From the NCBI GenBank assembly GCA_019671135.1, contig JAHRHY010000012.1, forward strand, positions 1,736,001 through 1,800,000: a stretch of 64,000 bases of DNA. Reading direction: 5' to 3'. This document shows, piece after piece, positions 1-18,498 of the stretch. The stretch is from Linnemannia hyalina (lineage: Eukaryota > Mortierellomycota > Mortierellomycetes > Mortierellales > Mortierellaceae). Position numbers and translations under genes: made by a program. Every line of letters starts with the position of its first letter. Positions within the stretch are counted from its first letter, which is position 1. Under the pieces are notes generated by a model that saw nothing but the letters and a program-made list of their open reading frames with translations, was not told the origin of the DNA and ran no database searches.

Positions 1-3000
1 GGCATTGACGTCATTATCTCGAAGGACAGTGATATGACGGCGTATCAATCAGTCACGACCCTCTGGCGTCCAGTCTCCAATAACCTTATCCTCGTTTACA
101 AGATTCCCGATGTCCTCGCAACTCTTGGTATCTCTCGGACGCAGCTGACGGCGCTCGCGGTAGTATCTCGAAATGACTATCACAAGAACATCTACTCGCT
201 TGGGCCAGCAACCAACTTCAGCATTATCAAATCGATTGGATCAAGACCAGGTAATATCGCGTTGAAATTGAGTGGCGACTTCATTTTTTTGGCATTCTCA
301 GCCAAATATTTTACAAAGCTGGTTCTCATTCTGATTACTTTTTTTTTTTAAAAAATAGACGCCCGAGAGATTGTCGCTGCCTACCTTACTCACGGCCAAG
401 TCGTGGTGAAAAACACGAAAGAGGAGACATTCGAGAACTCGATCCGGGTGTTCATTATTTTACAGCAAGAGCCAATCCAGCCTTTAGTCCAAGAGTCGCA
501 AGCCCTGCAGCTCTTCCGTGTATTGCAGCACAGGTTCAACGAACTTTACATCAAGCACCAATCCACAAAAAATATTCGAGCGGCAGGAGTCAAAGAGAGG
601 TAATTGTACAACGTATTTTTTGAGGATTTTTGTACTTTGCGGAGAGTTATTTATGAACTACAGTTCTCATCATATGCTTTTGTTGGTATGTAATAAATAG
701 GCCCAAGGATGACATTGTACGGCTACCCTCGCCAAAGACCTTCAACCGGTACCGGACGGTCGAGTCACCCGCTGCTATCTCTAAGACAAAGACCGTCACT
801 ACACCACAACCTGCGCGTGGTCCTTCACAACAAATCTCTTCTGATTCCAGTCCATCTCAACAGTCTACTTCTGTGATGTCTGCCCCAGATGCTGACGGCC
901 ATCCACCCTTATCAAGGACACGGATCCCGCGGAACCGAGGACGATTCTCGTTCAAGGAGAGAACCCGCAAGGTTGTCCATGCTCCACCTCCCAAGGCTAA
1001 GCAATTCAAACTGAAGTTTTACCAAGAACGACCGGAGACTGTCAACCCCACCCCAGCCAAAAAGACGACGTCAAAGGCCAACAAACCACCACAACCCAAC
1101 ATGAAACCGATCGCCGACAAGGACAAGAGTGGATTATTGCGATCTCTTTCTTGGCACCATCCTACCGCATGGCTGGAAATTGGCACCTTGGAGGCGAATT
1201 TTGGACGTGTATCAGGAGATGGAGCAACACTCGGAAACCCGGAAATCCCACTGAATCTTAACATTGTGCAGCAGGAAGTGGTGGATTGCCTACAGGAGGC
1301 TGTCCAATCAGCAGCAACTGTCAAACGGAATGCCCAGAGGCTGATCGGAGAGTTTGTTGAGACATTGGCTGTCAGGATGCACGCCGCAGAGGAGACGAAG
1401 AGGGCAGAGTTGCAGAAGCTCTCCCCGCCAATGACCATGACCAACGTCGAGCGTCGCAAAGCCAAGCGCGATGCTGTCACAAAGGACGAGCGAGAAATCC
1501 TTGCCCATCTATGTGTGCGTATCAAACCCAATGCTGCCGACAAGGAGCAACAGGATGTTGAGCAGAAGGAGGAGGACAACACCGACCTGGACGACAAGGG
1601 CAATCTCGAGCAACAATTTCTGCGGCCTTTCCTGGCATATCTCTATTCCGGGAACTACCCGAGTAAAACAAGAGTGGGTGTCGTTGTGAACAAGCTCATT
1701 GACTGGTTGACAGATCACGGGTTCCATCACCCTATTCGGGCTAGGAGAGACCTCAACGAGACTATGCCGTTCACCCCTTCCATGCTTGTTCGCTCTGTCT
1801 CAGTACAACTCGCAGTCGAATTACAGCGGATCTATGGACATGGCCCCCATGACCTTCACAAGCAGGTATGAATCAAAGCATCAGTACCTACTTATTATGT
1901 ATTTCAATTTAAATCACAAAGTTAACATTCTCACTCTTGTTTTTCATTTTTAGGCCACAGCTATGGTGGCGAAACATTTATTGCCACCAGAGGCCGACAT
2001 TGGTATACAGGACGACATCTCCGCTGTTGAGAACTTTCTTCAACTAAATCGAATCACTGGCAACAGGCGTCGGATCATCCCTCTCACCTCGTTCGAGTTA
2101 CCATTCGTGTCGTTCACTGAGCCTGAGCTTGCTTCGTTTTTCTGGAAGAGAGAATCGCTCAAGACGCGACTTACGGATCTGGTTGCAGAGGATGGATCTC
2201 CTGCCAATACCTTATTCGATATCACGAGCTGGATCGCTGGCAAGGGTCCCGGGATCATTATCAAGCAGTTCATTGCTGATGTCGCGCCTCAGGTTAAAAC
2301 GAGCCGTCAGCGGAGGAAGGCCGGTCATCGCGGGGCTGTCAAGCTTCTCACCTTAGAACAGATCAAGTCGCATTTGACAGCTGTTCAGGACAAGTGGGTC
2401 GATCCGATCAATTACGCCACAAAAGGATACATCCTGCGTGGCTCCATTCGCACGGACGGATTCCGGCTTCAACTTCCGGCCTACAAGCTCCGTGAGTTGC
2501 ATTCAGTACGGTACCGTCGGTTGGAACCTACCAAGCTGCCACCCAAGCTGACGTCTACGGTTGGAGGCACAGACTACTATCTCCAAGAAATCCGACGTGT
2601 GATAACCTGCAAGGAGGATATCGAGAAGCTTTGGCCAGGTGTCCCTGTCGAAAGGATCAAGACTTTGACATTGGACGGTGGACAAGTATGCGTTATTGGT
2701 GCCTTCGCGGATCTTGCAGAGGACGTGTTGAGCCAGTCTAAGGGCAAAGATAATGCGAACGAGTCATCTATGGAAGACGTCACCACCACCACCGTCGCCA
2801 CTACCACCGCCACCGACAATCAGCAATCGATTAATGCAACTACCTCCGTATCGACCAAAGTCCCCATCCCGTTGCCACAGTCACAAGGGTTACCTACCTT
2901 CTCGTCCAGGACAACATTTCTGAACCTGGCTGTCAAACAGAAAGCCGTTTACCAACCTACGTTCAGATTCCGGCGCTGGCTTGAGGACACAAAGCAAGAG

Positions 3001-3886
3001 CAGGTCTCTGTGGATGGACAGCAGGTATCGATATCCGACATCGAGTCTCGACTTCCGCCCCTCAAAGGCCAAGGCTCGAGCGTGATCAACTATGTACAGG
3101 AGCTGAAGCGGGTGGAGGAGTGTCTCCAGAAGTTTTATGCTGGCTCGGGAAATCTGTACAAGCGGCAGAAGTGGGACATGGAGAGGGCCCGCGATTATGA
3201 GTACCAGCTTATCGCAAATCGGCTCCTTGGGATCGTGGGAGGAAGTCTTGGCGAGCGATATGACCCATCAAATCCAGTTCTCATTGGCGTCGGTCTTGGG
3301 AACTTCTCTATCACAAGCGGACTGTCAGCCCTCAACTCGACCTTTCTCAGCTACTTCATTCAAAAGGTAACCATTGCCTTGAAAGTGTCCATTAGCGGAG
3401 AGTACCCCTTTATGGGTCTCCGTGTGTTAAAAAAACTAATACGTATGCTCCTTTGATTTTTTTTTCTGGAATTAGGCCCGCTCTCTCGGTTACATTATCG
3501 TCGGTCTGAACGAGTACTACACGAGTAAGAAGTGCCCTCACTGCGGCCACTTTATCGCCCAGGTCACTCTCCGCCGCTTCTACTGCCCCGAGTGCCAAGT
3601 ATATCATCATCGCGACGTTATGGCAGCCGAGAATATGGCGAACATTGTGCGTGGATATCTGGAAAAGCAAGAGCGGCCTGAGTATCTACACCCCGTAGCT
3701 GCTGACGGCTCTCTCCCATGGATGGCAAAAGCCGGCGCTGGACCCGCTACAAGTTCCACCGCCGCCTCCTCCAGCAGCAACACCACCACCGCCATCAATC
3801 GACCAAAGGGATCGCGCAAGAGGGCAACTTCGACCTCCAGCTCAAGTCGGGGTCGTCGTGGGAAGGTGGCTCAAGAGGATAAATAG
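1..3886 (+). CDS. FEN1/XPG-like nuclease fused to Fanzor/TnpB-type RuvC nuclease, copy A (5' end outside window)
   Basis: Exons 1-250, 359-599, 701-1865, 1954-3366 and 3476-3886 join in one open frame (1159 residues visible). The window opens inside an XPG-I-like segment with the acidic pair in ISKDSDM. After a linker and a helical region come a RuvC-I-like LTLDGG (Asp codon at 2674), a RuvC-II-like strand (LIGVGLG), then NEYYTSKKCPHCG...CPEC (zinc ribbon) and RuvC-III HHRDVMAAENM (Asp codon at 3614). The NEYYTSKKC stretch resembles the Fanzor motif that, as I recall, supplies the relocated catalytic Glu. A Thr-rich insert follows RuvC-I. All visible exons are intact. The family knowledge is that TnpB/Fanzor proteins are RNA-guided DNA nucleases of transposons; activity here is inference. 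The C-terminus is Ser/Arg/Lys-rich and could carry a nuclear signal. The tail and 3' flank match the relic at 6955-7735. Confidence 0.85.
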
Positions 3887-3963
3887 AGCAGCTATACATA
3901 GTTTGTGTGACGGTTCGCCCACACACATTAATGCAGATAGGAGGGTGTGGTGCACATATGCGT

Positions 3964-3990
3964 CTTCGGTGACGTAATTTAGGCGCCCAT
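3964..3990 (+). other. Conserved 3'-flank box of copy A
   Basis: CTTCGGTGACGTAATTTA (3964-3981) is identical to 14992-15009 behind copy B, and the following bases (GGCGCCCATT against TGCGCCTATT) are also close. It lies about 80 bp after the stop codon, against about 135 bp in copy B. The flanking sequence between each stop and its box is not similar, so the box stands out. It could be the end of the mobile element, the 3' end of a guide-RNA-like transcript, or a shared regulatory site, since it contains a TGACGTA CRE-like core. Confidence 0.55.
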
Positions 3991-4143
3991 TCTCCTCTAG
4001 TCATGCACCCATTGTTCAATTACGACGAGTAACATTTCACTTCCAAGCTGATTCACAACTATCAACCAAGGTACTGCCCCCAATATGGCGAGTGTGATGT
4101 CGCGTAGAGATTATGAGGATTTTTGCCTATTGATCTCTGCATA

Positions 4144-4462
4144 TCCTGATGTGCCATTGGGCTGCAGGAGAAGACATCTTGATGCGTACTGTCATTGGAT
4201 AGGCGCATCCCACTCGCCTCATTTGATACATAGCAACATGCACTTTACTTTTTCCCCTCTCTAGCATCGAGGCAGTGGTTGTTTTAAAGAAAGAAAGAAG
4301 GCTTAGTAGGGGTGCGACGAGAACCTTGCCAGTTGCTCTGATCCCTACACTCCTGATGTGCCATTGGGTTGCAGGAGATGCCACCTTAACGTATACTGTC
4401 ATTGGGCGGGTGCGTTACCGGTTTTGTATCCGGATATGTACTGTCATTGGGCGGGCATATCC
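4144..4462 (+). repeat. Array of five hairpins with a common CATTGG loop
   Basis: Two hairpin classes alternate. Class I: 4144-4169 (stem TCCTG/CAGGA) and 4350-4377 (CTCCTG/CAGGAG), both with loop ATGTGCCATTGGG(C/T)TG. Class II: 4181-4209 (GATGCG/CGCATC), 4387-4417 (TAACGTA/TGCGTTA) and 4432-4462 (GGATATG/CATATCC). Each class II stem is closed by a T.G pair over loop ACTGTCATTGG(AT/GC)(A/G)G. Stem sequences differ completely among class II members while pairing is kept. The I+II pair is duplicated about 206 bp apart. The rest of the 3887-4569 interval shows no gene. Confidence 0.7.
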
Positions 4463-4569
4463 ATGCTTTCTTTGTTATGACTAATGATGTAATAGAACCT
4501 AAACAACTTTGTAATTTATTCTCTTTTAATGTTTGCCATGCCTTTGCGTGTCCCTGAGTCTGCACTCCG

Positions 4570-6782
4570 ATGGGCCTTCGGCCTATATTGGACGCCGACA
4601 CTCCAAATCCTTTGATTCGCGAGAAATCATCAGAGCTGGAAGTTTTTTTTTACGATGAACCTCCAGTCCGATGGCTACCTGAAGTCTATGCTGAGCTTCA
4701 TGGCGGGGACACTAAGGGCTTTGTCGATGGCGTAAGACATATGTCCACCTGGGGACGCTTCCCACTGCGATCGTCGACACGCACTCTGCTAGAGCACTGT
4801 GAGTCGGACTATGGCAAAAAGCAGCTTGCCCTTCTGGTTTCATTCTTTACCTTCCAAGTTGTGTCTGACTACCTAGCAATCAATGCTGGCTCATGCTCGG
4901 CGGACCAACTGAAAGATGACCTGTACCCATCAGGCGCGAGGAAAGACAGCGGAAATCCAGGCAGTCATACAACCGCCGACATTGACTACGAAGACCAAGA
5001 GACACCACCTCCAAAGAAAGCTCGCGTCGGGCAGGTCACCACGCATCGGTCACATTTATCTCCCACTACTGAAGATGGCTACAACACGACTGGTATGTTT
5101 ATAATTGTTTTGTTGTAATTTTCTGGATCGAAATTTGTAAACATTTTCCTGATGTACTGAATATTATGTGAATACCTAGGTTCTCCACTGGCACCCCGTG
5201 CACGATCCTTGAAACCTATCAGCCCCGCAGCACTTCTTGCTGGAGGATCAGCTCCAGCATCGCCAGATTAGTCGACGCTCGCACCGCCCTCGCCTCCGGA
5301 TTTTAACAAGGTTATGGAGCAGGAGGCTCAGTCCTTTTTAACTCCGCTGGGTCCTTGCAAGACATTCTCCTCAGCAATCTTCGTGACGGCTACACCTTAC
5401 CTCCGTGGGCTAAGGACCGTCCCTTGCACACATTCAAGTTACAGCTACTGGATGATTGGGGCCCTCGATTGACAGGTCTATATGAAGCAGCCAAGACTAA
5501 ACCTGTCCTTGATCATACTCATGTTGATGAAATTGCGTACGTCCCACACACTATTCTTGACTTTTGCATATTATTTTTATCGTTATTTTCTCTCTTCTCA
5601 TGCATTTTCTTAACTTTGTAATAGCTTGCTATCTGGCATACTCCACCTCAACAAGAACCACGTTGGGTTCACTGGCCAGGAGGTAAAAAAGATCTCCAGA
5701 GAAGTTCTCCAAAAATTTTACAGTCGAGAGAAAGAGGACGAGGATATTCAGCGGTCTCAGGATGCTGCTCTCCTCTGGACAAGCTGGGTTCAGGTTAGTT
5801 ACAGTTGGGTTCAGTCGAATTATTATAACTCTTGGCCTCAAGGAAGTACCTTAACCTCAGCTCCATGTGTGGGTTTGTACGTTTAGAAATGGAAGTCGCT
5901 TCTTCTGAACGAGAAGGTTGCGGCACAGAGAGATGATCGGGATCCAGCCAAGGTGGTTAACACAGAACCAGTTGTGGAGGCGATACTGTCGTCCTATGCT
6001 GATTGCAGGAGCAAAAACATCACGTCAATCTTTTTCATTGCCTTGCACGTGTTTCGTGAATACAACAACTGGGCTGCTATGGTTTCTGAGTCGGATTGTT
6101 TGATGGCAGTTGTTGGTCCGATCTTGAAAGAGATCATGTCTCTCCAACACAAAATCAAGTTTACATGGTAACATTCATTATAGTTGCAGCATGATATACT
6201 ATTTACTTTACTCACTTCCCTAACTGGGTTGTATTGGTGTATTCATTAGTGCCAACGCTTGTACATCCGTCGGAAAGACCAGAAAGGCCACGCTCAAACA
6301 AGATGGTCAGTCCCGCCAACCCGATGTCATAGGGCAGACGGAGGACAAAGATGGAAGTGTTTTATGGTGAGCTCAAAGGACTTCATCCAAAAATAGAGGC
6401 TGTCAATACGGATATCCTCCGCCTTGCAATCTTTTCCAAGGATTCTCTGGACGTGTTACACAACACCTTGGAGCAAGGCCCGCCACTGCTGACCTTCCAG
6501 ACTGTTGGTCTCGATGTTACCTTCTTCTTGGGAACCAAGATCAACAACACTATTGTTCACATTCAGCTATCGACTGTCAAGCTACCATCACGTTTGACTG
6601 AGCTGGATCTGGACCACGATTTCTTTTTTCACCTATTCCAAGTCCAGACCTTGATCAATATCACAAACGATCGCCTTGAGAACAAGAGGGATGAGCCACT
6701 ACAAGAGATCTTTTTCCCGACCCTTGGGACTCCAGAGCGTAATGCAGCTTTGAAGAGTCCGCTTAAGAGAGCTACCGCATGA
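4570..6782 (+). pseudogene. Decayed multi-exon gene with PD-(D/E)XK-like motifs
   Basis: Exons can be traced at 4570-5092, 5180 to about 5537, 5625-5793, 5887-6167 and 6250-6782, with usable GT-AG sites between them. The frame is broken. A TAG falls at 5268 in the second exon, that exon needs a frame change to reach LQDILLSNLRDGY, and the last exon needs another between RQPDVIGQ and FYGELKG. The pattern PDV then GELK resembles the D...ExK core of the PD-(D/E)XK nuclease fold. I recognise no named family beyond that. A basic PPPKKARV stretch near residue 150 could be a nuclear signal. The gene lies between copy A and the inverted relic, so their 3' ends face it from both sides. Confidence 0.5.
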
Positions 6783-6954
6783 CGGAGTGGGATGCGAGCT
6801 AGCCCATAAATAAAGTAACAAATATGATGACCTCGATATAGTGAAGCAAGGATCTTTAATCGGTCCGCATTGGTTCAACGAATGACACTGCTTACAACCC
6901 TTGATGGCGCATGAGCTCTCCGCAGTCGTTGTTGGACATGGCTGCAACAGATTA

Positions 6955-7735
6955 GGTATAGCTACTCTATTTATCCTCTCGAGCTGCCTTCCCACGGCGA
7001 CCCTGACTTCAGCTGGAGGTCGGCGCTGGCCTTGCGCGATCCCTTTGGTCGGTTAATGGCGGTGGCGGAACTTGTAGCAGGTCCAGCGCCGGCTTTCGCC
7101 ATCCATGAGAGAGCCGTCAGTGGCTACGGGGTGTAGATACTCAGGCCAATCTTGTTTTTCCAGATAACCTCGCACAATGTTCGCCATATTCTCGGCTGCC
7201 ATAACGTCGCGACGATAGTACTGTACACATGGTACTCAGGGCAGTAGAATTGGCGGAAAGTGACCTGGGCGACAAAGAGCCCACAGCGAGGACACTTTTT
7301 GCTGGTATAATATTCGTACAAGCCAACAACCATATACCTCAAGGACCGCCCCTAATAAAAAATAAAGTGATGTTTGAGATGTTAGTGTATGGGTTACAAT
7401 GTTAAAAGTGTCCATATCGACAATGGCCATAACACAATTCTTACCAGTTTGATGAAATAGGAATCCAGGGACGAGAGTCCACTCCTAGTCGAGGATTTGG
7501 CCAGGCTCACTCCCATCAATACGTAGAGGTGATGGTGGTGTTATCCAGAATAGCCAATGTATCATCCTGCCCTTTAAAGGTCCTCGCTTCCAGAAAAACG
7601 CTGCAAGCTCGCGCTCTGAGAATGATACATTGGGTCGTGATGGGGACCATTCGACGGCTGTTTCCTGTGAGCTTGTTCAGGTGGAGGAAGTTTTCGACTG
7701 CGGAAACATGTTCTCGAATCTGAACGTCGACGTCG
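6955..7735 (-). pseudogene. Fanzor-like relic with internal deletion
   Basis: Read on the minus strand, about 7735-7535 matches the start of exon 4 of copy A (VSAVENFLHLNKLTGNSRR against ISAVENFLQLNRITGNRRR). The match then jumps to the RuvC-II end of that exon (LMGVSLAKSSTRSGLSSL), so several hundred residues including RuvC-I are missing. After an intron-like gap, exon 5 continues (VGLYEYYTSKKCPRCG). The last zinc-ribbon Cys is changed to Tyr (FYCPEY), and a frameshift follows before the RuvC-III block. The Ser/Arg-rich C-terminal tail and stop (6967-6969) and a few flanking bases still match copy A. It is non-functional as a nuclease. It ends just beyond the 3' end of UBE2S. Confidence 0.8.
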
Positions 7736-7977
7736 CGTCGCACTGTTTGGTCTGAACGAGAGAAAGTGTCTCTGGCACGTGGGTCCTGGATGGAGTTTGA
7801 ACGAGGATGTGAATGTGATGGAAAAGGACGGAAGAAGAAACCGATGTCTCTCACCTGAACCATGGCGCAGACAAAGTAAAGTGGCGTGTGATTTTCAAGT
7901 ACGAGTTGATAACGGGTAGGTTTATTTTGTACAAGATGTGTTCCTCCATCCGAAAATGACTCTTCTCTCACCACCCT

Positions 7978-9800
7978 TCAGAGTCGACGCAAGGCCCGCT
8001 TCTTGTCCACATGAAGCTCCGGCCGAACATGGTTCAGGCTGCTCAGGTTATGAGGAGCCGCCTGACATGAGGGCCGAAGCATTGACGCCGCTGCCGCTGC
8101 TGTCGTTAATATAGAGGTTGTCGTGGTCGAGTGTTGAGTGAGCGAAAGGCTGCTGCTACATGAACCCGCAAGTACCGATTGAAGATGATGCTGGCCGACA
8201 GTCGAAGAAGAAGTTCCCGCTGTGACGGTGGTGGACCTGGAAGTAACTACAGCCACAGATGTCATGACCGACGTTGCAGTTGTGGTAGGTGTACTTCCGA
8301 GGAGGGTATTATGCGCCATTTTTGGAGAAAGCATATGGTAGGTATTGCTGCTGTTGCAAAGCTCATCCTTTGGGAGCTGCTGTTCTTGTTGCTGTTGGCT
8401 ATTGTATTGGTCACTGACAGAGGCTGACTGTTTCTGCAACATGTTGAGGCCTTGGCTCCGATGTGCCAATGGTGCTCCCTGCAATGTTTGCCGTGCAAGA
8501 AGGTTCAGCTGGGTTTTGGCTTGCGCACTGGCAATCGTTGTCGATGTAGAATTCCGCTGTGCAGTCAGGACGGTCCGTGATTGCTGTTGTTGAGCTGCGG
8601 ATGGTCGTCCATGGCTGTTGGTTGTGCTCGTACTTGAGCAAAAGGGTGAGGAGGATGGACATGTTGCAGTTGACAATGATGACGAGGCTGGTTCCTGCTC
8701 TACCCGGTTCTCCGCAGATCCTAGTTTCCGTTTCGTAGGGATTGTAGTCGCTGTCGTAGATAAGCTGGGTTCCGCCAATGAAGAAGACGATGACGATGAG
8801 GCGGAGGAAGCAGCGGTCGAGGCTTGATCCTCGCCTTGAGGCGCACGTTCAGGTTTTGCCTTAGGTGTATCCTTCATCGCTAACGCCGCCATCATCGCCT
8901 CCTTTGCTTCACCATCAGTCTCTCCTGTGACACTAGCTGATGATAAAGTATCACTGTCCTTTGAACCCTCCTGCGCGTCCGCTCCTGGCGGTTTGGGTGG
9001 TGGGAATGCATCCTTTCCAGCCGACTGAGCATGGATTACCGTCATCAAAACGGCATGTCGTGCGTAATCGTCGTACCGCTCCAAGAGCAACCGTCCTGCC
9101 TCCTCGTTCAACGCCGATTCTGGGTTCGGATAGATCAGCAGGCACTTCACCACCTATCGTTGCAAATAAAAAGAAATAAGTAATTAGATAAATTGAATAA
9201 CGCATCTTCCTGTCGTTTTCATGGTAATGACATTATGTTCAAGGTTAATAGCAAACAAGGTTGTGAGGATATGAAATAATTACCAAAAGGATATGCTTGA
9301 GTCCGAGAGTCTTCTTCCAGTCTTTCTTGAGTGTACTGACACACACCTCGCCTTGTTTGGACACGTTGGGGTGAAATATTTTTGTCACAAAGAAGCCTAA
9401 TTACATCGTGTTCGGGTTGATATCAACGTTAGACCTCGAGAACATCCTTAAAAACCACAAAACGCGGACAACCGAAAAAAAAGGAGGGCAGTTACATTTG
9501 GGCGGTGAATTCGGAAAGTCGGCATTCAGCTGGACCCGTAGCCGGAAGTAACCCCCTGCATACGGGGTCCCCTCTATTCACAAACAAACAACATGCGTAC
9601 AGTTAACAAACAGCACTTCTCCAATGCACTTGACTGGTAACATTGTTGTTAGTATGAGTCTAACCTGGTCCCTGAATCCAGGCCTGGATGTCACTCATGT
9701 CCTCGCCGAGGATCATCCGAATCCCCTCTGGAGGGTCATTGACCATCGCATACACCTCGCGGGCGATCTTGCGGAGTGCTGCTGGCGGAGGGATATCCAT
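7978..9800 (-). CDS. UBE2S: Ubiquitin-conjugating enzyme E2 S (UBE2S-like)
   Basis: Exons 9800-9665, 9573-9496, 9396-9284 and 9153-7978 give 500 residues. The E2 core occupies about residues 1-150, with GTPYAGG, the HPN motif (FHPNV), the catalytic Cys (about residue 90, GEVCV) followed by LKKDW, and [20 protein letters not shown]. The protein ends in KKRALRRL, matching the C-terminal tail by which animal UBE2S docks on the anaphase-promoting complex. The known role is elongation of Lys11-linked ubiquitin chains on APC/C substrates. Between core and tail is an unusually long Ser/Thr/Gln-rich linker, making it over twice the human length of about 222 residues. The start is the ATG of [11 protein letters not shown]. 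Confidence 0.93.
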
Positions 9801-10408
9801 GGTGGAGAGCAAAGGGTGCACCGGATGAGTTGCAAAGGTGGCTGTGAGGGTGTTCAAGTGCGAGTTGCGAAAGAAAGGAAAGGTTCTTTGCCGCTCAAAA
9901 ACCATGGGCGAAGTACAGCTAGAGCTTCCTGGAGGGCAGGAAAATATTATACCACGACGTCACCTTTATTTTTGGATATACGCTTATTGAGGCGAAGTAT
10001 AGTTTCTGGTTTCATTGAGGATCGCGTGTACCGCTAAAAAAAGGATGAAGGGAAATACAGAGCCATTTATTGACCAGGTTCCTGAGTTGACGTACCAAAG
10101 TCTTGGAGGAGGCAACTGCAAGGCCGTAGGTCATCCACGCTGCATGTCTTTGACTTTTTGTTCATCAGCTCGATAATCATGCGCCTATTGTTGCAGAGCT
10201 AAATCCTTGGTGTCAGGGTCGTTGGATCAACGTGAGAAAAGCCATAGTGGAAAAATATGAAGTAACTACACTCACCGTCGCAGCCCTTAAACACTCGAAC
10301 CCCTACATAACCGAACACCCTCGTCCCACCAATTGTTATTCCCTCTTCTCAATTCTACACATCCCCCCCCCCAACCCCCAACCCCCATCTCATCCATCAC
10401 TAACCAGC
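9801..10408. other. Divergent intergenic region between UBE2S and copy B
   Basis: About 600 bp separate the two divergent starts. A C-rich run (near 10365-10390) lies just upstream of the copy B ATG. A direct-repeat copy lies at 10179-10192. No other gene is seen, and open frames here do not resemble known proteins. Confidence 0.6.
10179..10192 (+). repeat. Left 14-bp direct repeat flanking copy B
   Basis: ATGCGCCTATTGTT here is identical and in the same orientation to 15009-15022. The two copies lie 230 bp before the copy B start codon and about 150 bp after its stop. They could be a target-site duplication or element ends, giving an element of about 4.8 kb. Flanking sequences outside the repeats differ. 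Confidence 0.5.
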
Positions 10409-13400
10409 ATGGGACTGAAGGGGTTCTACCCTTGGCTCCGCAAGAAGAGAGATTACCATCCCACGCTTCGTCACCCCATGCACCACCACCTACCTGACGG
10501 CGCCACTATTCGCGTAGATGTACTGTCCTTCTTCAATAATATTCGCGGGATCTACACGAGGCATGCAGACAACAAGACAAGGGCGCATGCTATCCTCTTT
10601 GAGCATCTTAAGAAATATGGGAACCCCTCGCGCATGGTGTTCTATGTCGACGGCGCCCCTGCTCTCGAGAAGAAGGAGACTCACCACGAGCGAAACGAGA
10701 AGCGAGTCAAGGCCCTCAAGACCGCCAAGGTCGCCGTCGAGACGCTCAGCAACCGCGTCAGTCAAGGCAAGCCGCCCACCAAGCAGATGTTCAAGAATGT
10801 CGAAAAGAGTCTCCGTGGAGGATTCAAGTGGTCCCTCCGAGATCGGGAGGACTTCATCAATTTTCTGCAAGGTCAACAGCTTGACGCGCGCCTGTGCAGA
10901 ACCGAGGCCGACATTGACATCGCTGCAGAGTGCCAACCCAAGGACGTTGTTCTATCTCAAGACTCGGACTTCTTCGCTTACGATTCGGTCACGACGTTCT
11001 GGCGTCCTGTGGGCAAGCGGTACGAGGTCAAGGTCCTCGAATACAACATGGAGGCGGTGCTGGCCCAGATAAAACTGTCGACCACCAAGCTCACTGCCCT
11101 GGCATGCGTCTCGAGTAATGACCAGAACAAGAATATCCCGTCGATGGGAATTGCCACCAACTACAGCATTATTAAGGATCTACCCGATGCAGGTAAGAGC
11201 AAATGTCTTGCCAGCATGCCCATATCGCCTCTATTCCTTGTGGACATGGCCAGACTCATCATGACTCCTTTTTTTGAACCCCTTCTCTGTTAGACGTGCC
11301 GTCCCTGGTGAAGGAGTATCTCGAGAGTCCACGCGTGGTCTGCAGCTATCAAGAAGGCATCGACTTCACGGCCTCTATTCTCGTGTTCACTACAATGACT
11401 CAGGAGATTGCTGTTCCAGCGGGCGTATCCTCTGTTTCGTTGCCGTCATCACAGCCAGCGACGCCTTTGACGACCTCCCCTGCATCTTCCCTGTCCTACG
11501 AGCTGCTCTGTCAGCAGTACAAGTCGGTCAAGGACCAGCATGCCAGAGCCAAAGAACAGAAGAGCCAAGGGAATTTGGGCATCAAGAGGTAACAGATTAG
11601 GTGATATGTGATTCTCTCACATGACCCCTGATCTGACTTTCCCATCACTTGCAAAAAGTCTAACATGTTGTTTGCCTATTATCACACTCTACGACATGCT
11701 CTAGCGACGCCAAACCCAATCGGCAGGGCAAGCACAAGGAGTTTAGAAGGCACCGTGTGATCGACCGGCCAGCTCACCAGCCTGGAGTCTCGCGACAGGT
11801 GCACCGGCCGCGGCATTCGTACAAGACACGCCCAGAGCCGCAGCAGCACGAGCAACCATCGATCTGCAAGCAATACCAGCGAAAGCCCTACACGGCGGAG
11901 CATGAGGCACGGTACCGGCAGTCGATAGCTGAGGCCAAGGGAAAGAAGGCGAAGAAGAAGCAGCAACGAGAGGCTCAACGACTCAAGAAGGAGAAGGAAC
12001 TAGCCAAGAAGCCACCGCTCAAGATCGACGAGATGGACAAGATGCACCTGATCAATGCCATGGTGTGGGAGCATCCCCTTGTCTCCCTTCCCGTCGGCAC
12101 AGTCAGCGCTAACAGCAAGCGGGCAGCGGCAGCAGCCACCACCAACGCCAGTCAGCTCCTCTCATCTGAGCAGCAACAGCAACATCAGCAGCAAGAGGTC
12201 TTTGCATGCATCCTGGAGGTTGTCGGGCAAGCTCGTATGACGAAGAGACACGCACAGGAGTTTCTGGGAGCATTCATCGAGACTGTCTTTGAGCGTGGTC
12301 TGACCGAAGACGACCGAACCATCCTGTCCTTTTTGTGTCCCGCCGTCGAGTCCAAGATCCGTGTGATGCCCCAACCCAACCAGGGCTCTCAGGCAACCAG
12401 CAGCAGTCCTGCTGGCACTCCCACTGGCACTCCCGCTGAGGATGAAGACGAGGGAGACGCGGAAGTCGATGGCAACGAAGACATGGAGGATAATGGGGAC
12501 GAAGATGCCGAGCCATCCGCAATGGACAACCCTTTGTCGCCTTCTACCAGATCCTGCTGGCACACATCTACTCCCGCAAGATCAAGTCCAAGACGGTTGC
12601 TGAGCGGCAAGTCGGTCAACTGCTTGCACGTGCCACCTCCCTGGACATCACATTGCCCCCTGTTCCTCAACGTACCGTCTCCTACCCAACCACCGGGTTG
12701 CTCGAGTCGACCACCACACAACTTTACCGCTCAATCAAGATGATGTATCGCAACGGCTCGGTCGCCCTTGAGAAGAAGGTAATGTGAAGTTGTCAATCCA
12801 AGCTTTGTCACGGACGAAATGCGAAGAGAGCAGCACTCATCAAAACTTGTTTCGAACCAATGTCTATTTTTCCCCTTTACAATAGATCAACTCACAAGCG
12901 GATGGCCAACCTGGCACGGTACTTCCCAAGATCGACTCCAAGCTGCCTGCCATCGAGAATTACCTGCTTCTGAACAAGGCCAGTGGCGGATCGAGACGTA
13001 TTGCACCCCTCTCACCCCTGGCAGCTCGCTACGTTGGCTTCTCTGAGCGGAATTTACTCCCGCTGTTCTGGCACTGGCCAACCCTCAAGGACAAGATCCG
13101 GCGTATGATGGTCGAGGATCGCTACTTTCAGGATCCAGCCATAGTTCCCTCGCAGGCTGACGCTATGGAGTGGCTAGCCAGGACGACGCCTGGCCGCCTT
13201 GTCACCACTTTCCTGACGGATGTCGGTCTCCCGCCAGACAAGCACGACAAGGGCTACCGCAAGGTGACAAGAGTCATGGATATGGACGGCAAGGAAGGGC
13301 TCCGGGAACACCTCGGATGTCTGCGGGCCGAGACGTTTGACCCCAAGGAGTGGCACAGCAAGGGTTATGTTCTCAAGGGCTCGATCCGGACCAATGGCCA

Positions 13401-14857
13401 TTTGCTACAGCTGCTGGCATTCAAACTGAAGGAGCTCCAGTCTGTCCGGTACCGCCGTGTTCCCGAGGACAGGTTGCCCAACCCGCTCGTCACCACCATT
13501 GGCGGCACCAACAGATACCTGACCGAGGCCCGCAATGTCCTCTCCACAACTGCAGATGTGGAGAGCCTGTTGGCTGCTGATCCGAGTCAGGTCGCGGTAC
13601 TGTCGCTCGATTTGGGTACCTCCTGCATCGTCGGCGCCACCGTCTCCCTACCACTTGGCCAGACTCCTGCCACATTGAAGCGACCCCTCGGCAAGGAGGG
13701 CGACCAGAAGAAGAAGAAGAAGAAGAAGAAGAAGAAGAAGAAGACAAGGCGTGCCAAGCGGAAGCCCGGTGATCGGAAGCGGCAGAGGAAGAGGCAGAAG
13801 GCGCGCAAGTTGACCAAGCAGCCTCAGACGACTCGATACTTTGATCTGGTGGTCAAGCGCAACGCCGTGTCGCGGCCAACGGACAGCTTTTCCAACTGGC
13901 TTGAGGACCGGAAGGTGAACACCACCGGAGCATCTACCGGCAGGACCATCCAGGATCTCGAGTCTGCCCTGCCACCGCTCAAGGGAGAAGGCGCCTCGTT
14001 TTGCGAGTACGTTGCAGCGCGTCGGGGTTTTGAGGGCGACATGAACGACTTTTACAACAACACCAACTACTGGAAGCACCAATGGGATGCCAACGTTTGT
14101 CGGAAGGAGGAGTTCTGCAAGGTCGCCGAGGGCTTGCTAAACATGATAGGTGGATCTGTCGGACGGTCAAGGATGCCGCACCAACTTGTTGTGATCGCGA
14201 TCGGTCTAGCCAAGTTTACTGCTGTGAATGGCCCGCCATCACTCGACGGCACGTTTCAGACATTTTTCGTCAATCTGGTAGGGCACATCTTTGCCACGAC
14301 TATTCTGTAGGATCATTTCTTTACAGCGACATGCTAAAAAGGCCTCTATTTTTGTCTTGACTTAGGCTCGTTCGTTGGGCTACCTGGTCATCGGGATCAA
14401 CGAGTATTACTCGTCCAAAAGATGCCCAGACTGCCATGACTTTGTTTGCGCGACGTCGGAATGGCGGACCCTGTACTGCAAGACCTGCAAGCGCTTCCGA
14501 CAGCGCGATGTGATGGCGTCAGAGAACATGAACAATGCCATCAAGGACCACCTAATCCACCAGCAGCGGCCGCTTTACCTCCAACCTCGGCGTCAAGACG
14601 GATCTTACCCATGGATGGATGTCACTGCTGGTGGCGGTAGTGGTGATGGTGGAGGAGAAGCAGGCGGACCATCAGCTGAGGCCATGGACAGCAGTGGAAA
14701 CGGAGCAGGCGGTAGTGGTGGCGGAAGAGCAGCAACAGCCAGAAGGAGACGTGCCGCTTCGATCGTCTCGGTCGAGGCCCCCAACACCGACGTCAATCCC
14801 ACGGCTAATGCACCCAATTCTTCATCCAGCCACACCAAGAAAAAAGCAAAGATGTGA
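10409..14857 (+). CDS. FEN1/XPG-like nuclease fused to Fanzor/TnpB-type RuvC nuclease, copy B (one probable frameshift)
   Basis: Exons 10409-11192, 11294-11588, 11705-12778, 12886-14277 and 14366-14857 parallel copy A, giving about 1345 residues once a one-base loss near 12525-12531 is allowed for. Residues 1-260 are FEN1/XPG-like: MGLKGFYPWL start, acidic residues D37 (IRVDVL), D81 (FYVDGAP), E166/D168 (RTEADID) and D185/D187 (SQDSDFF), matching the metal-binding set of FEN1. The C-terminal half has RuvC-I LSLDLG (D960), the NEYYSSKRCPDC motif (E1195, C1202, C1205), CKTC (C1220, C1223) and RuvC-III RQRDVMASENM (D1230). A run of about 12 Lys and more basic residues follows RuvC-I, where copy A has Thr-rich sequence. 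The start was chosen because it opens the conserved XPG N-motif. The gene may be dying, or the frameshift may be an assembly error. Confidence 0.85.
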
Positions 14858-14944
14858 GCCCAGGAGTTTCACTAAGTATGATGCACTGTAGCATCCATAA
14901 TTAGATATACATGCTTGCCAGCATGTTCCATAGTGTCGGGTTAC

Positions 14945-15009
14945 GTGAGCTCGGTTACTTCATTGTAGGCCGAGGGGGCAACGATTACTCACTTCGGTGA
15001 CGTAATTTA
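14945..15009 (+). other. Structured 3' flank of copy B with conserved box (guide-RNA-like candidate)
   Basis: An outer stem GTGAG (14945-14949)/CTCAC (14988-14992) encloses an inner stem CTCGG (14950-14954)/CCGAG (14970-14974). The inner stem is closed by a T.G pair over loop TACTTCATTGTAG, which aligns with the class II hairpin loop behind copy A (ACTGTCATTGGATAG). The identical 18-nt box CTTCGGTGACGTAATTTA follows at 14992-15009. A further perfect hairpin ACATGC/GCATGT is at 14909-14926. In TnpB/Fanzor systems the guide RNA scaffold is encoded at or after the 3' end of the gene, so a structured conserved 3' flank fits. Expression is unproven. Confidence 0.45.
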
Positions 15010-15022
15010 TGCGCCTATTGTT
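15009..15022 (+). repeat. Right 14-bp direct repeat flanking copy B
   Basis: Identical to 10179-10192 (ATGCGCCTATTGTT), and it directly follows the conserved 18-nt box with one base shared. Copy A has a related but not identical sequence after its box, so part of this repeat may belong to the element rather than to the target. Confidence 0.5.
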
Positions 15023-15115
15023 CCGTAGCCTTATTTTATTTTATTTTTATGTCGCGACGCGTTTAATACGGTTCAAGATATTATGTTATTCGTAGATTGT
15101 GAATGTCCAGATAGC

Positions 15116-17693
15116 CTATATATCGTCTTCAGAGTCGTCGGCCCACTCCATGTCAAGGTCTTCACTCTCTTCCTTCATTTTGGTTAGCCCAGTGACATTC
15201 TCAAGGTGCGTTGCATCCTGGAAGACCTTGAACAAGAACCCGAACCCCTCCTCCTCATACGCAGCAAGGATAGGATCCGAACAGGCGGTGCATCGATCGT
15301 AGGCTTGACCAGAGATCAACATGTTCTTGAAGCGAGACAAGAATCCACGGATCTGGTGAGGCAAGAGTCCCAACGCGGAACCTTGCTGCGCAAAAGTATC
15401 CTGTTCAGCCTCTGCGTCAGCCTTGTCAGCCGGGGCGCGGACGCCCTCAGGGTGGTGAAGGAGCGACACCATCATCTCCACGGCCATGGCACTTGCAATA
15501 GCTGACAAACCAGGTCTCGTCACCGTGCACTGCTGATCCAAAGTTCGGTCGGAAAGAGAGTCGGTGGGGGCAACAATGTCGTTACAGAAGTAGCATCCCA
15601 ATGGCGTGGTTCCGTTGGGTGCATGGTGCTCCTGGTCCTGACCAACTCCGTGTCTCATGACCAGGAATGTGTCGAATCCGAGAGCTGCATTAATTACAAC
15701 CTTTTTCATCCTGGCACCGAGCACAGTAGGAAGCCAGCGACTCTCGCGACTGTCCATAAGCAAGAAGATGGCGTCGTGCTGCTCAAACAACTCCTCCAAC
15801 CTGGCAATATCCTTCTGTGCGTTCTCTACCAATTGTGGACTGATGGGGTGACCTGGCATAGGAATCGACATTGAATATCCATTCGCATTCTACTCAATGG
15901 CAATAAAGCGGAGAAAGGATGTTAGCAGCGGCTCACTCAAACTTGCCGCATTTCAAACACACGTCAAAGACTAACAGGAAACAACGTACCACGCCGGGGT
16001 AAACTTTGCGAAGACTGGCGGCTGCAGTCTCAGCTTTGGCTTTGCCACCCTCGAGACAGTCCTCGAATTCAAATAATGGTTGGCGGACAGGGTTCGAGAA
16101 CGAGACTTTGGCATTGTCGACGAACGTGATGTTGCGGACACCCCAACCCAACAAGGATCGCGCCACATAACATCCTAATGTTCCTGCTCCCAACAATAAG
16201 CAGCGAGTATTCTGCACCTTCTCCAACTGCAAATCCGGTAACAGTCTCCAGCGCATCAGCTTCAAGTTTAAATCCACTGCAGTGTCAGCCAAGCGCGCTG
16301 GGTCCATCAAGGGGGCCAGGTCAGCGAGACGAGGCCCAAGTTTTCCCTGAGCGTTCTTCTCCCATCCCACCGCCTTTGGACACACTATTATTATCAAAAC
16401 GTAGCGTTAGCATTTAGCCATGCGCCACATGCATCTTCATAAGACAGCGAAAGAAAAACAAAAAAGGAATTACCTGTCACAGGAACGTAGGACGGAAGCT
16501 GCGCGGTAAAGACTTTGCTGGCACTGATATCTTGCTTGCCGAGAACCTCACGGAAACATAACACGCGGACCTTGGTCACCTTCCAACGGTATTGCAGCAA
16601 TGCCAACAGGTTGCGCAATGGCCACCCAGGGTTACTGTCCAACGACGAAGGATCCGCAAATCCGACAATCACCTGCGATTGTTGAATGAGATAACAATGG
16701 TTAATATGGTGGACTTGATAGAAGTCATTTACCACACTACTAGATTCAAGATCGACATGCGTACCTGGCTCTCGTCATAGCCTGCATAGAATTCGTCCCA
16801 GTCCTGGAGGCGCGCCACCGAAAAACCTTCCTGACCCTCCTTGACAAGGAAGAATCCTGACTGACCGGGTCCAAAATTCATTTTGTATTGATCGACCTGC
16901 TCTCGAAGCTGGTTGATGGCGGGTGGTGACCAAACTGCGCCAATCCCCTGGATAGCTTCTATGGACCATGCTGGGTCTGCCTGGAGAGCAGGGAAGGCGA
17001 ACCAGTAAAAGAACTTGAACTTTTTCAAGTCGGCAAAGGTGACTAAGAGAAAGCGGTTGAGTGTTGATGGATCCAGGACCGCCTTTCCTGATGTAATATC
17101 ATCCCAAATCTACACCATATGGAAGGTGTGTTAGGATGAGAGTGCCAATGAGAGAGAGAGATGTTGACATACGCTGACAAACCAAACAAACCACGTGTCA
17201 AACTGGCCATACCTGGTCGACGACCATCTTGAAAAGTGCGGGCCTGTCAATAGCTTTGAAATCTTCAACCGTGTTCGTGTTCTTTACGACACCTGGTGCG
17301 GGGAATGTAAACGCTGGCGTCCTATCAAACACAAGTCAAGAACAAGAATTGCCGGTCAATTGACGTTGGTTTATATCGAGGAGGAATTGCTTATTTTTTG
17401 TTTCTTTGGTAGACCAGTAGTGTACAAGGAGGTGTCGTCTCTTACTTGTTCAGGGGGTGTTGGTCAGAGCCATTTTCATCTGGGAAGGCCCCAGTTCCGA
17501 GACAGAGTCGAGCGGGGAGAGCGACGGAGGTGTCCTTGCCGGGGACACGGACCTGCTGACCTGTGGAGTAGTAGCCGAGGATAGGTTTGGGGGAGTCGTC
17601 GAGTTTGAAGATGTCCATCTTGCGCTGAGTGAGGACCTGCCAGAAGGGTGCCTCGACTGCCGAGGCCCAAGGATGAAACTGTAGCAGTGTCAT
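15116..17693 (-). CDS. ATG7: Autophagy E1-like enzyme ATG7
   Basis: Six exons (17693-17446, 17321-17213, 17109-16765, 16672-16474, 16384-15990, 15889-15116) give 689 residues, close to the animal and fungal length. The N-terminal ATG7 domain starts [18 protein letters not shown]. The ThiF/E1 nucleotide-binding site is [10 protein letters not shown], followed by [20 protein letters not shown]. The catalytic Cys is at about residue 553 in [10 protein letters not shown], and CNDIV with CTACSD provide zinc-type Cys pairs. The C-terminus is acidic, as in other ATG7. It activates ATG8 and ATG12 by adenylation and thioester formation in the cytosol, for transfer to ATG3 and ATG10. It is transcribed divergently from the dioxygenase-like gene. 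Confidence 0.95.
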
Positions 17694-18498
17694 TTTCTTG
17701 ATAGCGCGTCCTGGAGTTGTAAGTCGCGTTGTTGTTGGTGTGTGTGTCTGAGTGCAGTCGGCAAGATAAGTCTGCTTACGTTGCTGGTTGTGAAAAAAGA
17801 AAAGTAGGAAAGCGGTGGCAAAAGAAGGAAGTGATGTGTTGGGTGAAAAGAGTGAATGAATAAGAAAACGAAAAGAAAGAGCACTGCGGCGACTTTAACG
17901 AAAAGTAAAAAAAAAGTACCGCGTGAGAAGTAAGAAAGGTGCGCGTGGATTCGACAGGTCCAGTTGAACAAGGCAACCTTGGCACGCACGACCCACACGC
18001 TGACCTTACTACTCTCTCTCTCTTTTGAGGTTCAGAGGTTCAAGTATGTGTCGACTTTGCGATTTGTGCAAGTTTCGGTGACGTATTTTTCCCGTTTTTT
18101 CCCCACCTCCCCCTCCACTCGCATCTCACAGACAAGACATTCCCAGGGAGCATACCGTACACTGTTGAAAGGCAGTGTGTGACCTTGACCCTATTTCATA
18201 CATAAGAGATCTCTTGCTTTTAGGACTCCTATCTTCATTCCCTCTCCTTTCGTCAACCCTCGTTACACACATCGCCTTGACGACCTACATCCTTTGATAC
18301 CAATAACAACACGGCGCACACACAACAAGACCGAATGCACCTGCCAGTCTGAAAAGGTACAGACAACGCAATGCGCCCTTTGTCTCCAGTCGGGAAAAAA
18401 ATACTCAAAATACCTCCAGCGCCACGAAATAATAGCCTTTCGTGAATCAAGGGAAGAAAAGGCTAACTGACATTCTTCTCTTGCCTTGCACCTTCCAC
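17694..18498. promoter_or_regulatory. Divergent promoter region of ATG7 and the dioxygenase-like gene
   Basis: No gene is seen in this 0.8-kb interval. It is C+T-rich near the plus-strand gene. TTCGGTGACGTA at 18074-18085 matches 12 bases of the box behind copies A and B and contains a TGACGTA CRE/ATF-like core, here in a likely promoter setting. Confidence 0.4.

Follow-up and report, generated by a model that had tools for sequence, protein, structure and literature searches.

The soil fungus Linnemannia hyalina (Mortierellaceae) has a genome of 51.5 Mb in 50 contigs, from which we analysed a stretch of 64,000 nucleotides, hereafter called the window (bases 1736001-1800000 of contig C4). The window carries two copies, A and B, of a five-exon gene whose product joins an N-terminal FEN1/XPG-like 5′ nuclease to a Fanzor/TnpB-type RuvC nuclease (Table 1). 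Such a fusion had been proposed for copy B in a sequence-only reading. It is borne out by the sequence itself, a relative's predicted structure, gene models from many species and the genome-wide co-occurrence of the two halves, and we regard it as nearly certain that both nucleases belong to one protein.

The single gene model proposed for copy B holds in so far as its five exons are bordered by GT..AG intron ends. It is not one open frame: the reading frame shifts in exon 3 between positions ~12490 and 12533. An intron as the cause of this break was excluded, since the relative on contig C12 is open there; because that relative reads through the region in a single frame, copy B is either a broken copy or contains a sequence error. 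Copy A has the same five exons, as had been claimed, and with the introns removed it encodes 1335 amino acids without a stop (phases 1, 2, 0, 0). Database protein P0001 is identical to this translation. The agreement in splice phase, claimed for every junction, stands at the first two; the frame change in exon 3 leaves the later phase bookkeeping of copy B off by one reading frame. As copy B is frame-broken, the claim of a fusion rests on copy A and the relatives.

Table 1. Fusion-gene copies, element ends and a remnant in the window
Feature	Position	Strand	Content
Copy B exon 1	10409..11192	+	FEN1/EXO1-like 5′ nuclease core (D37, D81, E166, D168, D185, D187, D238)
Copy B exon 2	11294..11588	+	End of 5′ nuclease half
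Copy B exon 3	11705..12778	+	Linker and start of Fanzor half; frame break ~12490-12533
Copy B exon 4	12886..14277	+	Fanzor half with RuvC-I aspartate
Copy B exon 5	14366..14857	+	NEYYSSKRC, C4 zinc ribbon, RD motif, stop codon
Element B right end	14962..15030	+	Conserved motif and terminal inverted repeat; weak hairpin (z -1.8)
Copy A exon 1, 3′ part	1..250	+	Exon starts 528 bases left of the window
Copy A exon 2	359..599	+	
Copy A exon 3	701..1865	+	Continuous open frame linking both halves
Copy A exon 4	1954..3366	+	Fanzor half, RuvC-I D969
Copy A exon 5	3476..3886	+	NEYYTSKKC, C4, RD1246
Element A right end	3934..4002	+	Hairpin (z -4.3) and terminal inverted repeat; left end outside the window, in L068
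Third-copy remnant	6970..7734	-	Pieces corresponding to copy A residues 741-831 and 1170-1335, middle missing

In the 5′ nuclease half of copy B, the acidic set D37, D81, E166, D168, D185 and D187 is present at the residues named earlier, and we observed a seventh acidic residue of the site, D238, that had been missed. All seven are present in both copies. The RuvC-I aspartate, the NEYYSSKRC motif, the four cysteines and the RD aspartate are likewise in place, with the two aspartates at 959 and 1229 rather than at 960 and 1230. Conservation was scored over 28 aligned relatives, whose gene models are of mixed quality; gaps were not counted. Among rows with a residue at the site, the seven FEN1 residues are conserved in 11/13, 19/19, 21/22, 23/23, 17/22, 20/21 and 20/22; for the Fanzor half the figures are 25/25 (RuvC-I aspartate), 20/25 (NEYY-type glutamate) and 25/25 (RD aspartate).

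Domain searches agree with this picture. The Pfam TNB zinc ribbon was matched by copy B (E=6.8e-9) and copy A (7.6e-14), and XPG_I by the same copies at E=2.5e-4 and 6.7e-5, both just under Pfam's own cut-off. PF00867 and PF07282 occur together in one protein in each of P0004 and P0005, and the NCBI models fen_arch and guided_TnpB both match P0028, P0001 and P0004, below strict cut-offs. The predicted structure of a relative, a check suggested in the sequence-only reading, contains a 5′ nuclease fold and, in the C-terminal two thirds, a Fanzor fold (REC, WED, RuvC, TNB), so that neither half lacks a predicted nuclease fold. Together with the recurrence of the fusion in eight genera, this prediction excluded a chance resemblance of either half. 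In profile searches of the PDB with the Fanzor half, TnpB L79 scored better (9.5e-7) than GtFz1 (0.019) and SpuFz (0.51); a designed helix bundle (0.0019) was taken as spurious.

The Fanzor1 motif has been published as D-X(125,275)-[TS]-[TS]-X-X-[C4 zinc finger]-X(5,50)-RD (PMC3627910). Both copies conform to it: 245 residues lie between D969 and T1215 of copy A and 237 between D959 and S1197 of copy B, and five residues separate C1239 from R1245 and C1222 from R1228, respectively. A glycine and a glutamate 36 positions apart, G500 and E536 of SPu-1-1p, are reported to be extremely conserved in Fanzor1; G1157 and E1194 of copy B, 37 apart, are their probable counterparts, an equivalence judged from the spacing.

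Protein searches with the full-length sequence and with a profile, which scored only candidates sharing most words, listed 40 and 46 proteins, copy A counted in both. All named relatives in both searches are Mortierellaceae, the family to which Benniella, Haplosporangium, Gryganskiella, Dissophora, Entomortierella, Podila and Gamsiella were assigned by lineage. Those spanning at least 88% of copy A come from Linnemannia, Podila, Haplosporangium, Mortierella, Dissophora, Benniella, Gryganskiella and Entomortierella. The search for proteins with both domains, which the earlier reading had called for, yielded fused gene models in eight genera of the family; public records list them as hypothetical proteins, and some bear the label XPG-I or Cas12f1-like TNB domain-containing. 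The Fanzor half on its own returned 185 proteins, and among the best 120 of these the named ones are Mortierellaceae (including Actinomortierella, Lobosporangium and Lunasporangiospora) and the rest metagenome proteins. Phage records gave zinc-ribbon matches only, in 2/50,697.

Six-frame searches of the genome revealed 105 Fanzor-half matches at 70 loci and 80 FEN1-half matches at 74 loci. A FEN1-half locus lies upstream on the same strand within 5 kb at 27/70 Fanzor-half loci (25 of the 27 at 1640-2318 bp); 1000 random placements gave a mean of 0.5 pairs and a maximum of 4. At the other 43/70 no FEN1 half was detected in this co-occurrence search, which used all 105 Fanzor-half rows and 79 of the 80 FEN1-half rows (one overlapping row was omitted) and counted as a miss one merged C44 cluster that encloses a FEN1 half. 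The exon plan is common to copies of 30-40% identity, and in exon 4 identity among the copies on C1, C8 and C21 is 99-100%.

The ratio of nonsynonymous to synonymous substitution rates (dN/dS), taken from the listed pairs without stops, was 0.087-0.318 in exon 1 (A vs C13 0.123; C1 vs C8 0.158). In exon 4, for pairs with dS >0.1, it was 0.085-0.559 (A vs C13 0.110; B vs C12 0.25; C12 vs C14 0.559). In more distant pairs dS exceeds 2, and ratios of 0.31 to 0.97 in pairs with dS <0.03 are little informative. These values support purifying selection on both halves.

Further FEN1-half matches group by equal scores and open-frame lengths. One of them, L075 (C6:26000-32000), was read over its whole length: it combines a 5′ nuclease half with a RuvC half containing GIDPG and with a C4/RD zinc ribbon, and its gene is followed by the right-end motif of the window family. 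It aligns with the Fanzor halves of that family (27% identity to P0028), and none of its domains reached a Pfam cut-off. For L072 and L073 the reading covered the 5′ nuclease part. L075, L072 and L073 constitute a second, diverged multi-copy lineage in this genome.

The fusion genes are set in a transposon with terminal inverted repeats (TIRs) and 8-bp target duplications, a setting missed in the sequence-only reading. The copies terminate in CTTCGGTGACGTAATTnnnGCGCCCATTGTCC and a few further bases, and left ends start with GGnnnCAGGACAATGGnCGC; in several copies, copy B included, no left end is recognisable. The TIR pattern occurs at 58 genome sites vs 1 for a reversed control, and the right-end 16-mer at 146 vs 1. 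Since 146 right ends stand against about 70 Fanzor-half loci, many ends are without a gene; gene-less "ghost" Spu-1 elements have been reported (PMC10432273). Identical 8-bp flanks were observed in 3/5 two-ended elements: ATTTGCAT on C13, AGGCATCC on C22 and TCCCTCCA on C17, where the left end has an internal deletion and the edge was placed by eye. TGACGT, which is found 30 times in the window on both strands, stands exactly five bases before the duplication in all three. An element on C5 has the same left context and no clear left TIR; from this context ACTCGCGT was predicted as its duplication, and the far end, fetched afterwards, does begin with ACTCGCGT. Altogether, 4/6 elements have 8-bp duplications, all four after TGACGT-N5 (L071, L056/L032, L044/L036 and L047/L078). 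MULE/Mutator transposons are characterised by TIRs and target duplications of 8-11 bp, and the elements described here show both.

The context GCAAGGAAATA-N(3-12)-TGACGT occurs at 10 genome sites, 3 of them directly upstream of fusion genes. Three of the four duplication-bearing elements are inserted within such a GCAAGGAAATA-N-TGACGT context.

Elements of the family also appear nested. The C22 element is located inside a sibling right end, and the right flanks of copy A (window 4003-4019) and L018 resemble the right-end consensus from the first base (13/17 matching, 5e-5 per random window position; 2/22 flanks examined), as if these two had inserted into sibling right ends.

On C6, a transposase-like protein is encoded at a pair of TIRs where no fusion gene was detected. 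Six other loci hold relatives of this protein, and five of the six adjoin fusion loci: the partner gene is divergent to the fusion gene on C1, C8, C25 and C9, on the same strand on C19, and not adjoining on C13. A further partner-gene exon adjoins the fusion gene on each of C1, C8, C9 and C5. Neither the window nor the neighbourhood of copy A in L068 yielded the transposase-like gene, and of 23 genome matches to Pfam MULE none falls at the C6 TIR pair or adjoins a partner-gene locus.

Right after the gene, the right end is predicted to form a hairpin with a conserved CUUCGG-like loop. Ten of 21 right ends are more stable than all 200 dinucleotide shuffles (z-scores to -8.0; copy A -4.3); all others are weaker, among them copy B (-1.8) and L029, L031 and L075 (between -0.1 and -0.6). 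Several paired positions vary in identity yet stay paired. The right-end alignments A3 and A4 held 23 and 21 sequences; L021 (a short deletion) and L027 (near-identical to L026) were omitted, and right-end-like matches not directly after a Fanzor-half copy were left out. Five left ends showed no such structure (z -1.5 to 1.6, mononucleotide shuffles), and Rfam gave no match at gathering level in window 1-16000. For the Fanzor1 elements of insect viruses, the predicted guide-RNA scaffold includes the TIR and the target duplication (PMC10711439), and by analogy a structured right end at the inverted repeat fits that prediction.

In its predicted C-terminal fold and in the TnpB/Fanzor motif with published spacing (PMC3627910), the family resembles the Fanzor1 proteins SpuFz1, GtFz1 and PpFz1, as it does in its presence in TIR elements, its structured right end and its many gene-less ends. 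Unlike them, it has an N-terminal FEN1/EXO1-like nuclease and a total of about 1300 amino acids; most Fz1 proteins have 600-700 (PMC11423790). The MuDR-type Fanzor1 elements ROr-4, PBl-3 and MCi-4 of Mucoromycota share the Mutator-like TIR vehicle and the early-diverging fungal host, but they have 9-bp duplications and no transposase (PMC3627910), whereas the Mortierellaceae elements have 8-bp duplications, a transposase-like gene beside several copies and the nuclease fusion. In contrast to the 5′ nucleases FEN1, EXO1, XPG and GEN1, the N-terminal half does not belong to a housekeeping repair gene but is transposon-encoded and followed by a Fanzor half. Full-text searches of a set of open-access papers turned up none that describes a FEN1/XPG-Fanzor fusion; for partial matches that pair Fanzor or TnpB with FEN1, XPG or flap endonuclease, the starts of the abstracts do not indicate a fusion. 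The Fanzor1 type itself is already known, and the novelty is the second nuclease attached to it.

We tentatively propose, with a little less than even confidence in the account as a whole, that the Fanzor1-type nuclease of a MULE-like TIR transposon of Mortierellaceae gained a complete FEN1/EXO1-type 5′ nuclease that trims guided breaks. The right-end transcript would serve as guide RNA, its scaffold ending at the inverted repeat and the guide lying in flanking DNA. With it, the Fanzor half would cut matching DNA, for example the empty site after excision or an empty allele, and the FEN1/EXO1-like half would remove 5′ flaps or resect 5′ ends at the break or R-loop edge. The resulting 3′ tails would favour repair from a copy still holding the element. 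Excision and integration would fall to a MULE-like transposase whose gene may lie in the same element or elsewhere. Guided cleavage by intact copies is probable; whether 5′ end processing is coupled to it seems to us a nearly balanced question, with the answer tilting slightly towards no. A further extension, which we think somewhat unlikely, is that 3′-tailed guided breaks force homology-directed homing and that the system may cut or recombine its own relatives. Because insertion occurs at TGACGT-N5 and the family's own right ends hold such a site, nested copies (copy A, L018) would draw from their flanks guides that look like sibling right ends, and cutting or recombination within the family would therefore be possible.

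Several points weigh against the proposed account, which is built on genes, DNA and predicted folds. The Fanzor1-type label comes from motif, predicted fold and TIR setting. Copy A and the C48 element have no 8-bp duplication (4/8 and 5/8 bases match), and the one family match of the partner protein, MULE at E=0.048, is below the Pfam cut-off. The hairpin is weak or absent in copy B, L022, L029, L031 and L075, and could be a DNA structure used by the transposase. The consensus that RNAalifold derived from the MAFFT alignment of right ends is poor, with 5 pairs; the 5′ arm is apparently misaligned there, and the right ends were therefore folded singly. Additionally, many copies have stops, truncations or partial sequence, and in P0011 to P0014 the fifth FEN1 aspartate and the NEYY-type glutamate are both missing; these four may form a subgroup in which the two activities are being lost jointly.

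Such damage would be expected if the copies were dead relics and the fusion had no present function, as would the frame break of copy B. We consider this quite improbable in view of the nearly identical exon 4 on C1, C8 and C21, the perfect 8-bp duplications, the low dN/dS in diverged pairs and the fully open copy A. That the halves are separate genes or a prediction artefact is extremely improbable. The fusion was read from DNA, most matches to either half are separate exons, and the 43 loci noted above could be read in this way; against this, in copy A a single open frame, exon 3, runs from the last part of the nuclease half into the Fanzor half, the exon plan is kept among strongly diverged copies, and fused gene models occur in many species.

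Other readings assign the 5′ nuclease a different task. It may serve transposition, trimming flaps or 5′ ends of intermediates of the MULE-like transposase or integration gaps, with the Fanzor half acting independently. Such a role would suit the transposase-like gene beside fusion loci on C1, C8, C9, C5, C25 and C19 and the strict insertion rule, TGACGT-N5 followed by an 8-bp duplication. Host FEN1 enzymes could, however, do the same work, and the retention of both halves in one chain across eight genera suggests joint use; we therefore judge this role unlikely. Alternatively, the 5′ nuclease half might cut the right-end hairpin in a structure-specific manner and so process the guide RNA or its precursor. 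The gene stops immediately in front of that hairpin with its conserved loop, and most models need a guide RNA released from a longer transcript, but enzymes of the FEN1/EXO1 family act chiefly on DNA. Fanzors described so far obtain their guide RNA without a FEN1-like domain (PMC10432273), and the chance that guide processing is the function appears small.

The preferred reading, guided cutting coupled to 5′ end trimming, would bear on what Fanzor does for its transposon, and the family offers a handle on that question. To our knowledge, the eukaryotic RNA-guided nucleases described to date are single-activity cutters, and genome editors add exonucleases to Cas enzymes in an attempt to control broken ends. 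A family-wide, repeatedly amplified fusion with a structure-specific 5′ nuclease suggests that evolution may have coupled guided cutting to the control of broken ends. The protein family is directly testable, with two diverged lineages within one genome.

Around copy B, two further observations were made. The sequence ATGCGCCTATTGTT, also present in the right end of copy B, occurs upstream of that copy at window 10177-10195 in the same orientation and is perhaps the leftover end of another element. On the other side, ~85 bp separate the end of copy B from the 3′ end of a minus-strand host gene (window 15116-17900), which, from the resemblance of its translation, we take to be an ATG7-like (E1-like) gene.
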